From assembly GCF_022378355.1 (NCBI RefSeq), contig NZ_JAKMAJ010000004.1:62001-126000 (forward strand): 64,000 nt of DNA, written 5' to 3'. Below are positions 30,260 to 57,704 of this stretch, piece after piece. Below the pieces are notes generated by a model. That model made no database searches and had not been told where the DNA came from. It saw only the letters and a list, made by a program, of their open reading frames with translations. A program made the position numbers and the translations under genes. Each line of letters starts with the position of its first letter. Within the stretch, counting starts at the first letter, position 1. This DNA comes from Brenneria bubanii. GTDB taxonomy: Bacteria; Pseudomonadota; Gammaproteobacteria; Enterobacterales; Enterobacteriaceae.

Positions 30260-30290
30260 GCAATGACGCTGTCGGTCATTGCCCCATTTT
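30260..30290 (+). terminator. candidate ubiX terminator
   Basis: Perfect 8-base arms GCAATGAC (30260-30267) and GTCATTGC (30275-30282) around a 7-base loop, followed by CCCATTTT and a further T run at about 30296-30302. It lies 37 bp after the ubiX stop. The T tract is displaced, so confidence is moderate. Confidence 0.5.
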
Positions 30291-30329
30291 GATGCTTTTT
30301 TATCTTGTTGCATCATCCCACTCCACAAC

Positions 30330-30346
30330 CGCCCCGCCATGGTGCA
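30330..30346 (+). promoter_or_regulatory. possible NtrC site upstream of hisJ
   Basis: This 17-mer matches the NtrC consensus TGCACCAAAATGGTGCA at 12 positions. The right half ATGGTGCA is perfect and the left half (CGCCCC) is degenerate. Its centre is about 180 bp upstream of the start point predicted from the sigma-54-like element, within enhancer range. Confidence 0.4.
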
Positions 30347-30492
30347 AATCATTCGTCATACTTATTGGTCGGCGACTGAATTTCTCTTGTTTTTACTCCC
30401 TCTGATATTTTAATTCATTTAATTATCAACTAATTATAGCTTTCCCCCTGTCGGCGGCATGCGGTTATGCCGTTAATTCGGCTTGCTTATTG

Positions 30493-30508
30493 TGGCATGA
30501 AAACTGCA
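30493..30508 (+). promoter_or_regulatory. sigma-54-like promoter of hisJQMP
   Basis: TGGCATGAAAACTGCA keeps the invariant GG and GC exactly 10 bases apart and differs from TGGCAC-N5-TTGCA at two positions. The predicted start is near 30519, giving a leader of about 110 bases to the hisJ ATG. Nitrogen control of periplasmic amino-acid permease genes at this locus is established in Salmonella, which supports the reading. Confidence 0.55.
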
Positions 30509-34825: not shown

Positions 34826-35242
34826 TTAAAATCGCTTCTTTACTGATTTCCGGGTACGCAGCGCGATAGGCAACGCTTTGTAATAACGCAAGCTAATGGA
34901 CACGGAATCGGCGTACCGCAGGGCAAATAATTTATCCACTTCAACTTCAGCATAGGTGATCCAGGGATGATTGCTGGCAATATCAAGCACATCCTGCGTT
35001 AATTTTTCCAGCAGGGCAAAGCGATTCTCCTCCACATGACGAATAATGTTCTTGGTGACGGTGCGGTAATTCAACGCGTCGTCGATATCATCGCTATCGC
35101 GTGATTTTTCCGCCGGGTAGTGAATCTCAACATTGATGACAACGTCCTGCCGGTTGCCGATTTCCTCTTCTTTAATACCGATGAAAGTGCGTAATCGCAG
35201 ATTTTTAATCCGAATAATGGCATCCGTATTAGGCTGTGGCAT
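34826..35242 (-). CDS. folX: dihydroneopterin triphosphate 2'-epimerase FolX
   Basis: A 138-residue protein homologous to FolX and FolB, which epimerises dihydroneopterin triphosphate to the monapterin form. The core [19 protein letters not shown], the [13 protein letters not shown] segment and the [17 protein letters not shown] helix match E. coli closely. The ATG at 35242 is supported by GGAG six bases upstream; a TTG at 35266 also opens the frame. The C-terminus continues about 18 basic residues beyond the E. coli protein (after SISLRYYKA). Confidence 0.94.
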
Positions 35243-35495
35243 GCATCGCTCCTGTGTGGCCTGCAATTGTCGGGTTATAGACGTTACCGCGGACGTGTCC
35301 GCGCCCCTTTAATACGTTTTATCTTAGGGATTTCTTTTGATTCCGCCACCACGCCCATTGTCGGGCGGTCGGCGTTCGCTGTTTTCCGGGGGCGTCTCTG
35401 CACCTTTCGCTGGTGATTGGCAATAAAAGACGTCTTTTATCGGCGATGGCCGACATGGCATCGGTGCCCGCAGACAAGGGACTCAATGGCGCAAA

Positions 35496-35512
35496 AGCAT
35501 CAAAATGGTGCG
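35496..35512 (+). promoter_or_regulatory. NtrC-like enhancer site 1 upstream of eat
   Basis: AGCATCAAAATGGTGCG matches the NtrC consensus TGCACCAAAATGGTGCA at 14 of 17 positions, including the whole core CAAAATGGTGC. Its centre is about 155 bp before the start point predicted from the sigma-54 promoter. Confidence 0.7.
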
Positions 35513-35522
35513 CGACCTTAAA

Positions 35523-35541
35523 TGAGGCGCGACGCGCATCA
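35523..35541 (+). promoter_or_regulatory. 19-bp palindrome between the NtrC-like sites
   Basis: TGAGGCGCGACGCGCATCA is a dyad with arms TGA-x-GCGCG and CGCGC-x-TCA and only one mismatched pair. It does not resemble an NtrC site, so it may be the operator of a second, unidentified regulator of eat-eutBC. Confidence 0.45.
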
Positions 35542-35554
35542 CGATGGATCATGC

Positions 35555-35571
35555 TGCATTGGCGCAGTGCA
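35555..35571 (+). promoter_or_regulatory. NtrC-like enhancer site 2 upstream of eat
   Basis: TGCATTGGCGCAGTGCA keeps the outer TGCA and GTGCA of the NtrC dyad (TGCACC-N5-GGTGCA), with nine of the twelve defined bases. Its centre is about 59 bp from site 1 and about 96 bp upstream of the predicted start, typical enhancer positions. Confidence 0.5.
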
Positions 35572-35632
35572 TGACGGGGGGCGGCGGGTTTTTGAGCGCC
35601 ATATCTTTCTGCTATTTGAGCCCATCGAAGCT

Positions 35633-35648
35633 TGGTACGCTCTTTGCA
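35633..35648 (+). promoter_or_regulatory. sigma-54 promoter of eat-eutBC
   Basis: TGGTACGCTCTTTGCA fits TGGCACG-N4-TTGCA with one mismatch and has GG and GC exactly 10 bases apart. The transcript would start near 35659, 33 bp before the eat ATG, which is itself preceded by AGGGG at 35679-35683. Confidence 0.8.
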
Positions 35649-35691
35649 ACACCCTGCACAGTTTATTGAAATCAGGTCAGGGGATGGCTAT

Positions 35692-37077
35692 ATGAAAAAC
35701 AATAGGGCGGAACCGGGATTAAAACGTACTCTGGGCAGTTTTCATCTATGGGGAATTGCCGTTGGATTGGTTATTTCGGGAGAATATTTCGGCTGGAGTT
35801 ACGGCTGGGCGCAGGCCGGTACGCTGGGCTTTCTGATTACCGCGTTGGCTATCGCCGCCATGTATTGCGCCTTTATCTTCAGCTTTACTGAGCTGACCAC
35901 ATCAATACCTCATGCCGGCGGGCCTTTTGCCTATGCTTATCGCGCTTTTGGCCCTACCGGCGGTTTTATCGCCGGGTTTGCCACGCTGATTGAATTTGTG
36001 TTTGCGCCGCCGGCTATTTCGATGGCGATCGGCGCCTACCTGAATGTGCAGTTTCCCTCGTTGGATCCTAAATGGGTCGCCGTCAGCGCCTACCTGATTT
36101 TTATGGGCCTCAATATTCTTGGCGTTGGCATCGCCGCCACCTTTGAATTACTGGTCACGCTGTTGGCGATTTTTGAACTGCTGGTGTTTATGGGGGTGGT
36201 CGCTCCCGGTTTCGAATGGCGCAACTTTACTCATCTGGGATGGGCGGGCTCCGACGAATTCGGCGCGGTGGCGCTCTCTGGTATTTTTGCCGCGATTCCG
36301 TTCGCCATCTGGTTCTTTCTGGCGATTGAAGGCGCGGCGATGGCGGCGGAGGAAGCGAAAGATCCGCGCCGCACCATTCCTCGCGCGTTTATCTGCGGTA
36401 TCCTGACGTTAACCCTTCTGGCCGTCGGCGTCATGTTGTTTGCCGGCGGGGTGGGCGACTGGCGTCAACTCTCTAATATCAACGACCCGCTGCCACAGGC
36501 GATGAAGATGATTGTCGGTCATAACAGCGGTTGGCTGCATATGCTGGTATGGCTTGGGCTGTTTGGTTTAATCGCCTCCTTCCACGGCATCATCATGGGC
36601 TATTCCCGTCAAATTTTTGCGCTGGCGCGCGCCGGATATTTACCGCGTCCGCTGGCGCGTATCCATTCCCGTTTTCGCACGCCTCATCGGGCGATTCTGG
36701 CCGGCGGCGTTGTCGGTATCGCCGCCATTTTCTCTGATTCGCTGATAACCATAGGCGGGCAGCCGTTAACCGCCAATATTGTTACCATGTCGGTGTTCGG
36801 TGCGATAGTCATGTATATCACTTCAATGGCTTCGCTCTTCAGGCTGCGTCGCAGCGAACCTAATCTGAATCGTCCTTTTCGTGCGCCCTGGTATCCGTTT
36901 GCCCCGGCGTTTGCGCTGGTGATGGCGGTAATCTGCCTGGCTGCTATGGTTTACTACAACACGCTGTTGGCGATAATTTTTGCCGCCATGATGCTGATTG
37001 GCTATGGGTGGTTCCGTTTGACCCGCGGCGCGCGCGATTCCGCTGAGTTTGATCCGCAACTGACGACATCCAGGTAA
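35692..37077 (+). CDS. eat: ethanolamine permease (APC superfamily)
   Basis: A 461-residue permease with about twelve membrane segments. The start GLKRTLGSFHLWGIAVGLVI is typical of the Eat/ethanolamine permease family, as is the segment ISGEYFGWSYGWAQAG. The permease assignment is supported by its position directly upstream of eutB and eutC, a trio known from pseudomonads and other bacteria lacking the ethanolamine microcompartment. I chose ATG 35692, which has AGGGG upstream; a longer frame starts inside the sigma-54 promoter. Related APC transporters for other amines or amino acids are the alternative. Confidence 0.88.
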   Translation: MKNNRAEPGLKRTLGSFHLWGIAVGLVISGEYFGWSYGWAQAGTLGFLITALAIAAMYCAFIFSFTELTTSIPHAGGPFAYAYRAFGPTGGFIAGFATLIEFVFAPPAISMAIGAYLNVQFPSLDPKWVAVSAYLIFMGLNILGVGIAATFELLVTLLAIFELLVFMGVVAPGFEWRNFTHLGWAGSDEFGAVALSGIFAAIPFAIWFFLAIEGAAMAAEEAKDPRRTIPRAFICGILTLTLLAVGVMLFAGGVGDWRQLSNINDPLPQAMKMIVGHNSGWLHMLVWLGLFGLIASFHGIIMGYSRQIFALARAGYLPRPLARIHSRFRTPHRAILAGGVVGIAAIFSDSLITIGGQPLTANIVTMSVFGAIVMYITSMASLFRLRRSEPNLNRPFRAPWYPFAPAFALVMAVICLAAMVYYNTLLAIIFAAMMLIGYGWFRLTRGARDSAEFDPQLTTSR

Positions 37078-37242
37078 GCGTCCGGTTTTTCTCGAGGGGG
37101 GGAGATTGGAATGCGCTGAACGGTCACCGATTGTGGCGCCTTTATCGCGCCTCATTTTTTGTTCAGCCTGAGCATTGAATACTGAATGTGCAGAGGCCGT
37201 TCTCCCGATAGCGGACTATGTCAATATGAACGAGGCGAAAGC

Positions 37243-38634
37243 ATGTATCAGACTACGCTGAGTCACCGCAGTTACCGTTTTAATGATTTGCGTGAACTGA
37301 TGGCAAAAGCGTCACCCGCACGCTCCGGCGATATGCTGGCCGGCGTGGCGGCAGAAAGCGCGGAAGAGCGCATGGCCGCGCGCATGGCGCTGGCCGATCT
37401 GCCGTTGGAAACCTTTCTGCAGCAGGCGTTGATTCCTTATGAACAGGATGAGGTCACAAGACTGATTATCGATAGTCATGATCGACAAGCATTCGGTTTC
37501 ATCTCTCACCTGACGGTGGGGGATTTTCGCAACTGGCTGTTAAGTGAAAGCACGGATAGCACGCGGTTGGCGCAGGTCGCGCCGGGCATCACGCCGGAAA
37601 TGGCGGCTGCCGTCAGTAAAATTATGCGCAACCAGGATCTGATCCTGGCGGCTAAAAAGTGTCGGGTAACCACAAAATTTCGCAACACCATTGGTTTGCC
37701 GGGCCATATCAGCGTACGGTTGCAGCCGAATCACCCCACTGACGACCTGAAAGGTATTGCCGCCAGCATGTTGGATGGGCTGTTGTACGGCAGCGGCGAT
37801 GCGGTGGTCGGCATAAATCCGGCCAGCGATAGTTTGCCGCTGCTGGAGAAGCTGAACTACATGCTGGATGATGTGATCGGCCGCTTCGAGATCCCCACGC
37901 AGTCCTGCGTGCTGACGCACGTGACGAATACGCTGCAATTGATGGAAAAAGGGGCGCCGGTTGATTTGGTGTTCCAGTCGATTGCCGGTACCGAAGCCAC
38001 CAACGCCAGCTTTGGCTTTAATCTGGCGACGTTGGAAGAGGCACAGCAGGCGGCGTTAAGCCTGAAACGCGGTACGTTGGGCAATAACGTGATGTATTTT
38101 GAAACCGGGCAGGGCAGCAGCCTCTCGGCCAATGCGCATCATGGCGTAGATCAGCAAACCTGTGAGGCGCGAGCTTACGCGGTGGCTCGGCGCTTTTCTC
38201 CGCTGTTGGTGAATACCGTCGTCGGGTTTATCGGTCCTGAATATCTGTATGACGGAAAACAGATTATTCGTGCCGGTCTGGAAGATCATTTCTGCGGCAA
38301 ATTATTGGGCGTTCCCCTGGGCTGTGACGTGTGCTACACCAACCATGCCGAAGCCGATCAGGATGATATGGATACGCTGTTGACTCTGCTGGCCAACGCC
38401 GGATTGACCTTCCTGATGGGGGTTCCCGGCGCCGATGATATTATGCTCAACTATCAGAGTACCTCTTTTCATGATGCGCTTTATATTCGCGAGCTGCTGG
38501 GGCTGAAACATGCGCCGGAATTCGGCGTTTGGCTGGAGAAAATGAGAATTATCGATACGCAGGGCCGCTTATGCGATACCGGCAGTCACCACCCGTTATT
38601 ACAGCATCAGCCTTATCTGGAGGAAAGCGCATGA
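37243..38634 (+). CDS. eutB: ethanolamine ammonia-lyase large subunit EutB
   Basis: The 463-residue large subunit of adenosylcobalamin-dependent ethanolamine ammonia-lyase, which splits ethanolamine into acetaldehyde and ammonia. It is collinear with known EutB proteins over its whole length (LADLPLETFLQQALIPYEQDEVTRLI, TTKFRNTIGLPGHISVRLQPNHPTDD-type barrel sequence, FETGQGSSLSANAHHG). The ATG at 37243 has a GAGG upstream and lies 165 bp after eat. The stop overlaps the eutC start (ATGA). No eutA reactivase or shell-protein genes follow. Confidence 0.95.
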   Translation: MYQTTLSHRSYRFNDLRELMAKASPARSGDMLAGVAAESAEERMAARMALADLPLETFLQQALIPYEQDEVTRLIIDSHDRQAFGFISHLTVGDFRNWLLSESTDSTRLAQVAPGITPEMAAAVSKIMRNQDLILAAKKCRVTTKFRNTIGLPGHISVRLQPNHPTDDLKGIAASMLDGLLYGSGDAVVGINPASDSLPLLEKLNYMLDDVIGRFEIPTQSCVLTHVTNTLQLMEKGAPVDLVFQSIAGTEATNASFGFNLATLEEAQQAALSLKRGTLGNNVMYFETGQGSSLSANAHHGVDQQTCEARAYAVARRFSPLLVNTVVGFIGPEYLYDGKQIIRAGLEDHFCGKLLGVPLGCDVCYTNHAEADQDDMDTLLTLLANAGLTFLMGVPGADDIMLNYQSTSFHDALYIRELLGLKHAPEFGVWLEKMRIIDTQGRLCDTGSHHPLLQHQPYLEESA

Positions 38635-39431
38635 GTACAGTGATCCACGCGAATCCCTGGCAAGCGCTGCGCGAGTATACGGCCGCCCGAATTGCTCTGG
38701 GGCGAACCGGCGCCAGTATGCCGACCAGCGAGCTGTTGAAATTCGGCATGGCGCATGCCCAGGCCAGGGATGCGGTTCATCAGGCGTTCGATAGTGAAGC
38801 GCTGTCCGAACAGTTGGTGCAGGCAGGGTTGAAAACCCTGACGGTGCACAGTGCGGCGGAGAACCGACAACAATATCTGTGTCGGCCCGATTTGGGGCGT
38901 CGGCTGTCAACATCAAGCCGAGAGTTACTGTTGGCCATGGCCGGCAACCCCGCGGATATACTGCTGGTGGTGGGGGATGGTTTATCGTCTAAAGCGGTAC
39001 ACCGGCAGGCGGTGCCTTTGATTAAGGCCCTGTTGCCCTATGTGAGCCAGTTGGGGATCTCGCTGGCGCCCATCCTGCTGGCGCATCAGTCCCGCGTGGC
39101 GCTGGGCGATGAGGCGGGAGAGTGTTTGCAGGCGAAGGCGGTCGCTATCCTGATTGGCGAGCGTCCCGGACTGTCTTCACCGGATAGCCTGAGCGTATAT
39201 ATGACCTGGGGGCCGAATACCCGGCGGCTTGAATCAGAGCGTAACTGTATCTCCAATATTCGCCCGGAAGGGCTGGATTATCCTCTGGCGGCGTTTAAGC
39301 TGGCCTGGTTGCTGGAGCAGAGCTTCCAGCGCCGGTTATCGGGCGTTCTGCTCAAAGATGAAAGCGACAACCCCGCGCTTCATGGACGCATTAAGCCGCC
39401 TTTATCCTGGCTGCCGTCCCGCTCGCGCTAG
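38631..39431 (+). CDS. eutC: ethanolamine ammonia-lyase small subunit EutC
   Basis: The 266-residue small subunit, which helps bind adenosylcobalamin in the EutBC complex. Recognisable segments are ARIALGRTGASMPTSELLKF, DILLVVGDGLSSKAVHRQA and IGERPGLSSPDSLSVYMTWG. I chose the ATG at 38631, which overlaps the eutB stop by four bases; an open frame further upstream is out of frame inside eutB. It is the last gene of the eat-eutBC operon. Confidence 0.95.
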   Translation: MSTVIHANPWQALREYTAARIALGRTGASMPTSELLKFGMAHAQARDAVHQAFDSEALSEQLVQAGLKTLTVHSAAENRQQYLCRPDLGRRLSTSSRELLLAMAGNPADILLVVGDGLSSKAVHRQAVPLIKALLPYVSQLGISLAPILLAHQSRVALGDEAGECLQAKAVAILIGERPGLSSPDSLSVYMTWGPNTRRLESERNCISNIRPEGLDYPLAAFKLAWLLEQSFQRRLSGVLLKDESDNPALHGRIKPPLSWLPSRSR

Positions 39432-39519
39432 TTCCGGCCGCGCGGTGGCAAAAGGGACGTTGCGGGGTGATGATTTATCTTGAATGGGGAGTAAGACCCG
39501 CCCCGCAACTTTGTTAAAC

Positions 39520-39555
39520 TATACCCAAACTGCAACTTCAAACGAGAAGGGTATA
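39520..39555. repeat. short inverted-repeat element just before yfcE
   Basis: TATACCC (39520-39526) and GGGTATA (39549-39555) bound a 36-bp unit that includes TGCAACTTCA. I recall similar TATACCC...GCAACTTCAA...GGGTATA units as common intergenic repeats in Pectobacteriaceae and relatives. The right end supplies the AAGG ribosome-binding site of yfcE. Confidence 0.45.
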
Positions 39556-39559
39556 AACG

Positions 39560-40111
39560 ATGAAATTGATGTTTGCATCAGATATTCATGGGTCGCTAAC
39601 CGCCACGGATCGCATCCTGGATCTATTCGAACAACATGGCGCCGATTGGTTGATTCTCCTGGGGGATTTTCTTAATCACGGTCCTCGAAATCCGCTGCCG
39701 GAAGGTTATCAGCCCGGCGACGTTGCCGCCCGCCTGAATGCTTACGCCTCACGTATTATTGCCGTGCGGGGCAACTGCGACAGCGAAGTCGACCAGATGT
39801 TGATCAACTTCCCGATCACGGCGCCTTGGCAACATGTGCTATTGCCGCAGAACCGCCTTTTCCTGACGCATGGACATCTCTATCATCCAGATAACCTGCC
39901 GCCGTTGAATGACGATGACGTGCTGGTTTATGGTCATACGCACATTCCGGTGGCAGAGAAAAGAGAGAGCCTGTATTACTTTAATCCTGGTTCGACCAGC
40001 CTGCCTAAAGGCGGCTATCCCGCCAGTTACGGGATGCTGGAGCAGGGCGTCTTGCGGGTTCTTCCACTGCTTGGCGGGGAGCCTATTGCGCAGGTGACCA
40101 TTAGGCATTAA
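39560..40111 (+). CDS. yfcE: phosphodiesterase YfcE
   Basis: A 183-residue metallophosphoesterase of the YfcE/MJ0936 family. All metal motifs are visible: SDIHGS (Asp8, His10), LGDFLNHGPRN, RGNCDSEVD, THGHLYHP and YGHTHIP. E. coli YfcE hydrolyses artificial phosphodiester substrates in vitro; its natural substrate is unknown. It has the same orientation as yfcD and is separated from it by 74 bp. Confidence 0.94.
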   Translation: MKLMFASDIHGSLTATDRILDLFEQHGADWLILLGDFLNHGPRNPLPEGYQPGDVAARLNAYASRIIAVRGNCDSEVDQMLINFPITAPWQHVLLPQNRLFLTHGHLYHPDNLPPLNDDDVLVYGHTHIPVAEKRESLYYFNPGSTSLPKGGYPASYGMLEQGVLRVLPLLGGEPIAQVTIRH

Positions 40112-57640: not shown

Positions 57641-57704
57641 GGGCGGCACCGACAAGCCGCCCTCATAAATAGAATTTTTGATTAGCGCCTGTGGCGACAC
57701 AGGC
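57641..57704 (+). other. two hairpins in the nuoF-nuoG spacer
   Basis: Hairpin one has arms GGGCGGC (57641-57647) and GCCGCCC (57656-57662) and a T5 run 12 bases later. Hairpin two has arms GCCTGTG (57687-57693) and CACAGGC (57698-57704) closed by the GNRA-type loop GCGA, ending 21 bp before the nuoG ATG. They could tune termination, mRNA decay or nuoG translation. Confidence 0.55.

Follow-up and report, generated by a model that had tools for sequence, protein, structure and literature searches.

The window, by which we mean the whole 64 kb stretch of Brenneria DNA analyzed here, contains an operon in the order eat-eutB-eutC, encoding an ethanolamine permease and the two subunits of ethanolamine ammonia-lyase, and flanked by yfcH/folX on one side and yfcE/yfcD on the other. 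The operon and the spacer that precedes it hold the following features:

35496..35512, no strand assigned: predicted distal NtrC dyad AGCATCAAAATGGTGCG, centered at about -155, 18.6 bits on a matrix of Brenneria glnA and glnK sites
35535..35551, no strand assigned: middle NtrC-like dyad CGCATCACGATGGATCA, centered at about -116, weak alone (2.4 bits)
35555..35571, no strand assigned: proximal NtrC-like dyad TGCATTGGCGCAGTGCA, centered at about -96, weak alone (-0.1 bits; 9 of 12 specified bases)
35633..35648, plus strand: sigma-54 -24/-12 element of the eat promoter, TGGTACG-CTCT-TTGCA, TGGTACGCTCTTTGCA, read directly in the sequence
35659, plus strand: predicted transcription start, placed from the -12 GC at 35646-35647
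35692..37077, plus strand: eat, ethanolamine permease (TIGR00908, 634.9 bits against a cut-off of 381.75)
37243..38634, plus strand: eutB, ethanolamine ammonia-lyase large subunit (NF011649, 739.5 bits, the match beginning at residue 21 of the ORF)
38631..39431, plus strand: eutC, ethanolamine ammonia-lyase small subunit (NF003971, 319.2 bits, the match beginning at residue 35 of the ORF at 38529)

The eat gene starts at the ATG at 35692, and an alternative longer ORF opening with TTG at 35632 would cross the promoter. The eutB ORF opens at 37186, with a predicted start at 37243, and eutC most likely begins at the ATGA that overlaps the eutB stop. A genome search found a single eutB relative, making a long eut locus unlikely. 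A second eut locus was considered and rejected on the same count, together with the neighbors of the microcompartment shell genes: three such genes (L183, G000:C3:384001-402000) adjoin genes resembling UbiX/UbiD decarboxylase and adenine deaminase, an EcpD-like fimbrial gene is also close by, and judged by these neighbors the cluster is not a eut locus. Thus, the second eutB and eut-linked microcompartment genes expected of a EutR-type long locus were not found in the genome. Within the operon no gene for an aldehyde dehydrogenase was observed, and no regulators were seen among its identified neighbors. The genome also encodes a cob(I)alamin adenosyltransferase and carries cbiG, suggesting that the B12 cofactor may be home-made.

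The gap between eat and eutB measures 165 nt in the window, 175-177 nt in two congeners (G395 and G396), and 75-79 nt in the seven others, and in the window it holds a terminator-like stem (GGCGCCTTTATCGCGCC then TCATTTTTTG, 37135-37151). It also holds a hairpin at 37192-37218 that is imperfect in the window and aligns across 10 Brenneria species. Using a structure drawn from one of the aligned sequences, 89.9% of 109 cells are paired and the covariation score is 0.315, compared with 0.220 for shuffles and at most 0.139 when the structure is slid, although both-side changes occur in just 2 of 11 pairs, not above shuffles (mean 1.6). No T-run follows this hairpin, which might affect the levels of eat relative to eutBC.

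An earlier note on this DNA proposed a GG-N10-GC element with exact spacing upstream of eat, and direct reading of the sequence bears this out. The GG lies at 35634-35635 and the GC at 35646-35647, separated by exactly 10 nucleotides, and the element ends 43 bp before the eat ATG. The predicted +1 near 35659, also claimed in that note, agrees with the position of the GC. The spacer thus combines a GG-N10-GC core, flanks resembling TGGCAC-N5-TTGC, and a plausible distance before a gene, as expected of a sigma-54 promoter, and RpoN is encoded in the genome. The pattern TGGYRYRNNNNTTGCW is matched once in the window, by the eat element itself, and 43 times in the genome, compared with 17 matches for the reversed control pattern. 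Two other candidates for the spacer were rejected: a sigma-70 promoter (a scan of 35000-40000 gave two consensus sites where 4.0 were expected, and neither of them precedes eat) and a known RNA (across the window, Rfam gave one match at gathering score, the nuoG RNA at 57672).

To score the element in relatives we used 13 specified positions, with GG and GC required, of what we take to be the sigma-54 consensus. The relatives (L013-L092) are the best 80 of at least 591 eat relatives. All 26 Enterobacterales loci among them (L013-L038) carry an element scoring 10-12 of 13 upstream of eat. The same holds for 34 of 34 loci in a non-redundant close set composed of the window, nine Brenneria congeners (92-95% protein identity), and 24 other Enterobacterales (L015-L038; L013 and L014 were omitted as apparent duplicates of L114 and L116), while 5.6% of 3,400 shuffled spacers reach a score of at least 10. 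The scan covered 320 nt for the 34 loci and 300 nt for the controls, and in none of the 34 loci does the best site begin further than 272 nt from the first matched codon or ATG. Outside Enterobacterales, 5 of the 54 relatives (L039-L092) within the best 80 of at least 591 reach the threshold of 10. In a separate draw of 394 Enterobacterales genomes, eat relatives reaching E 1e-100 or better turned up in 15, counting the window's genome, and 13 that were neither the window nor a detected duplicate were examined (L105, a second gene fragment, was omitted, and L094 is a duplicate of L020). All four close eat matches in this draw (81-83% identity) have an upstream element scoring at least 10, compared with four of nine divergent matches (47-74% identity), suggesting that the promoter belongs to one eat clade and not to every eat gene.

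The genes around the operon are less constant than its promoter. A folX or yfcH gene lies upstream in 9 of 9 congeners, and the Symbiopectobacterium operon is flanked by yfcH and yfcE, but the yfcH/yfcE neighborhood is absent from the fetched flanks in 23 of the 26 loci L013-L038. The combination of one promoter type with differing neighbors suggests that the operon kept its promoter type across chromosomal settings.

The earlier note also described a 14 of 17 match to the NtrC consensus at 35496-35512 and a second dyad at 35555-35571, centered at -155 and -96. The match and both positions were confirmed by reading the sequence. The distal dyad AGCATCAAAATGGTGCG agrees with TGCACCAAAATGGTGCA at 14 of 17 positions (spacer counted) and with TGCACC-N5-GGTGCA at 9 of 12 specified bases, both strings being what we take to be the NtrC consensus. 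It corresponds to a GCACY-N5-RGTGC dyad located about 80-160 bp upstream of the start, as at NtrC-controlled promoters, with one core mismatch: it reads GCAT-N7-GTGC where 30 of 30 glnA and glnK sites read GCAC-N7-GTGC. These 30 sites, two per glnA and one per glnK from each of ten Brenneria, were picked with the presumed consensus and form the scoring matrix. On this matrix the 18.6 bits of the distal dyad fall within the training range (16.8-25.1) and are the best score in the window, where the next two sites reach 16.2 bits; the shuffle p of 0.002 is the floor of 500 shuffles. The dyad is centered 129 bp upstream of the sigma-54 element. When 30 of the 43 sigma-54-like sites in the genome were scored for NtrC sites upstream of them, glnK alone surpassed eat. 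The second dyad is present, but its score makes it unremarkable alone. The middle dyad, which we add to those listed in the earlier note, lies 20 bp from the proximal one inside a block conserved in the Brenneria alignment, and the two may therefore act as a weak pair.

Two other arrangements were observed in the window. First, a perfect 18-bp palindrome, ATAAAAGACGTCTTTTAT, occupies 35423-35440, in the spacer but farther upstream than the NtrC sites, and was not seen in aligned relatives in the genus alignment, in which the G394 and G400 rows are on the wrong strand. Second, another GG-N10-GC element, TGGCATGAAAACTGCA, lies at 30493 before a hisJ/argT-like gene (stretch 30280-30508), preceded by NtrC-like dyads TGCCCCATTTTGATGCT at 30280 (13.2 bits) and CGCCCCGCCATGGTGCA at 30330 (9.5 bits). 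The argT promoter of Salmonella is nitrogen-controlled and resembles this arrangement, so the hisJ/argT-like gene may mark a second Ntr operon nearby.

The NtrC sites are less well conserved than the sigma-54 element. Three of ten Brenneria species, namely the window, G395 (13.1 bits), and G396 (16.8 bits), have a clear distal dyad at the corresponding position. This dyad is weak in G398 (7.5 bits), and the matrix scan found nothing comparable at that place in the other six congeners; in these seven species no NtrC site of comparable strength was found. For the aligned proximal dyad, the scores are 7.8 bits (G395) and 6.6 bits (G396). The expectation that orthologous spacers would conserve the element and both dyads was therefore borne out for the element, but for the dyads only in part. 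Across the 34 close loci, the best NtrC-like site within a 150-bp zone reaches a shuffle p below 0.05 in 25, at varying positions. The nine loci above this value are four Brenneria (G394, 0.086; G402, 0.112; G399, 0.068; B. izbisi, 0.216), K. spallanzanii (0.433), K. grimontii (0.611), two Kosakonia (0.068 and 0.076), and Escherichia sp. ESNIH1 (0.269). K. spallanzanii and K. grimontii (L026 and L029) keep the sigma-54 element upstream of eat with no good NtrC site, and L026 has a palindrome, AACACTCTGTGAGTGTT, in its place. Combining the medians of 14 genera gives p-values of about 8e-11 against dinucleotide shuffles and 6e-11 against flanking DNA, values that overstate the evidence because genera are treated as independent and the flanking control windows, just 31 for the nine Brenneria loci, overlap. 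Together, these comparisons suggest that the enhancer sites may turn over while the sigma-54 core stays.

It could be argued that the dyads are chance and that the sigma-54 element alone matters, since only one of the three dyads is strong and 7 of 10 Brenneria species have not kept it. We consider this very improbable. Promoters of the sigma-54 class require an activator, the distal score is of glnA/glnK grade and unsurpassed in 64 kb, and NtrC-like sites are enriched across genera.

If an activator acts at these dyads, which one is it? The Sigma54_activat family has 12 matches in the genome, eight of them strong, and these eight correspond to NifA, FhlA, GlrR, NtrC, TyrR, PspF, and two NifA-like proteins under the NifA cut-off, one of which appears degenerate from its sequence. 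The ntrC gene (L004; NF008176, 1030 bits) is located off the window's contig. The genome-wide family search placed no sigma-54 activator gene on that 314-kb contig (C4), and tblastn with NtrC and NifA queries found none in 25692-47000, in agreement with the earlier observation that no dedicated activator gene adjoins the operon. Searches with tblastn likewise found none in the fetched flanks of the best 80 of at least 591 eat relatives, which extend about 4 kb on each side for most and less at contig ends; when repeated at a looser cut-off, the search recovered all eight positive controls. A local EatR was accordingly rejected, as the adjacent sigma-54 activator gene that defines an EatR-type locus was found neither on the contig nor in 25692-47000. 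Control by NifA was also rejected: NifA and NifA-like activators are encoded, but 35267-35691 contains no TGT-N10-ACA site. With no activator on the contig, no NifA-type site, and both RpoN and NtrC encoded, NtrC is the best candidate.

A different enhancer-binding protein driving the sigma-54 promoter, either an unlinked EatR-like activator that senses acetaldehyde or a NifA-like protein, nevertheless has some grounds. The short locus of P. aeruginosa is described as controlled by RpoN and an adjacent acetaldehyde-sensing EatR in the passages concerned (PMC5821096), and a NifA-like activator with 477.5 bits against the NifA cut-off of 528.85 (L005) is encoded in the genome. The NCBIfam matches of the activators included no EatR model, such that an unlinked EatR would not be recognizable by name, and an EatR-like protein bearing another name is conceivable. 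Against such control stand the lack of activator genes on the operon's contig and in the flanks of the best 80 of at least 591 relatives, the strong NtrC site in a spacer devoid of a NifA-type site, and the NtrC dependence reported for the K. pneumoniae ortholog (PMC11101070, relevant passages). We consider it improbable, though slightly less so than chance dyads.

The NifA gene and two adjacent NifA-like genes (L001, L005, and L008) bear on the host as well. An ORF at L159, which we take to resemble the nitrogenase iron protein, is preceded by a sigma-54-like site about 7 kb from the NifA-like pair, and the host may be a nitrogen-fixing Brenneria.

Taken together, the evidence favors NtrC as the activator and leads us to propose that 35496-35691 is the promoter-enhancer of eat-eutBC. 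Under nitrogen limitation, phosphorylated NtrC would bind the strong distal dyad at 35496-35512, probably assisted by the two weak dyads (35535-35551 and 35555-35571). NtrC would then reach, by looping, the sigma-54 RNA polymerase poised at 35633-35648, and the promoter would open at about 35659. The permease and lyase made as a result would release ammonia from ethanolamine. We assign a probability of roughly 0.85 to this reading of the spacer as a sigma-54/NtrC promoter-enhancer switched on by nitrogen limitation, which draws on the sequence and on analogy with a characterized ortholog. The headline of the earlier note, sigma-54 and NtrC control, is thus supported by the element conserved in 34 of 34 loci, by a site of glnA/glnK grade 129 bp upstream, and by the tests on the K. 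pneumoniae ortholog. We regard the promoter as real and NtrC control as a supported prediction, already known in kind from K. pneumoniae.

NtrC control of eat-eutBC was published in 2024 for that orthologous locus (PMC11101070), the only paper linking NtrC to a short eut locus among the literature matches listed. In its passages on the locus, no regulator was found beside the short eat-eutBC genes and putative RpoN and NtrC sites were noted before them (PMC11101070). Expression increased solely with ethanolamine as the nitrogen source, was lower in an ntrC mutant, and was lowered, although not to zero, by replacing a GCGC in the putative NtrC site (PMC11101070). Dependence on rpoN went unmeasured there because the rpoN mutant failed to grow in the medium used (PMC11101070, same passages). 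The K. pneumoniae spacer in our set (L032) has a GCGC within an NtrC-like dyad, which may differ from the GCGC changed by those authors (PMC11101070).

The residual expression of that K. pneumoniae mutant (PMC11101070, passages concerned) is what one would expect if, besides NtrC as the gate, the operon required a second input that responds to the substrate, in which case the promoter would not be a pure nitrogen-limitation promoter. The palindrome at 35423-35440 upstream of the enhancer and the hairpin between eat and eutB could serve such an input, but the identified neighboring genes include no regulators and the palindrome was not seen in aligned relatives. We view a second input as possible but doubtful, and retain nitrogen limitation acting through NtrC as the preferred reading.

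The single eutB, the operon lacking an aldehyde dehydrogenase gene, the B12-related genes, and the predicted NtrC control together favor a nitrogen-source role, while use as a carbon source is also possible; we infer that ethanolamine in Brenneria is chiefly a nitrogen source. A broader hypothesis, to which we give even odds, is that in one Enterobacterales clade eat-eutBC keeps its own nitrogen-limitation promoter wherever it sits, with the sigma-54 core frozen while the NtrC sites change in how strong they are and where they lie, ranging between a single strong distal site and weak pairs. If true, nitrogen hunger, and not the substrate, would govern ethanolamine use throughout a large group associated with plants and guts. 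No report on the Brenneria eat-eutBC promoter was found in our literature searches, among the matches listed. A 2022 review notes short operons, and its passages concerned do not mention NtrC control of them (PMC9397018). The present analysis would extend NtrC-RpoN control from K. pneumoniae to Brenneria and, through promoter conservation, to other Enterobacterales with the same eat clade. It suggests that ethanolamine from phospholipid is mainly a nitrogen source for these bacteria, and it provides a modest natural collection of loci in which to follow how enhancers turn over under a fixed sigma-54 core.

The Brenneria locus can be compared with several known systems. The long eut operon of Salmonella and E. 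coli has the EutBC chemistry in common with it (PMC5821096, passages concerned). That operon is controlled by EutR with ethanolamine and B12 and carries microcompartment genes (PMC5821096, same passages), whereas no second eutB was found in Brenneria. The P. aeruginosa eat-eutBC genes form, as in Brenneria, a short locus with a sigma-54 promoter (PMC5821096, relevant passages). They differ in the adjoining EatR gene and the aldehyde dehydrogenase gene within the operon (PMC5821096, relevant passages), neither of which was seen in Brenneria. The short locus of K. pneumoniae is similar in having the same genes, no reported local regulator, a sigma-54 element (CTGGCACTCTCTTTGCA), and upstream NtrC-like sites, and the eat proteins are 81% identical. 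K. pneumoniae has an additional long EutR-controlled locus (PMC11101070, passages concerned), whereas the search of the Brenneria genome yielded a single eutB; the yfcH/yfcE neighborhood was not seen around the K. pneumoniae locus, and the best Brenneria NtrC site outscores that of K. pneumoniae and lies further upstream. Finally, the glnA and glnK promoters of Brenneria itself share with eat the sigma-54 element and upstream NtrC dyads. Brenneria glnA has two sites 31-32 bp apart; the further dyads of eat score 2.4 and -0.1 bits, and its distal dyad has GCAT in place of the GCAC of the glnA and glnK sites.
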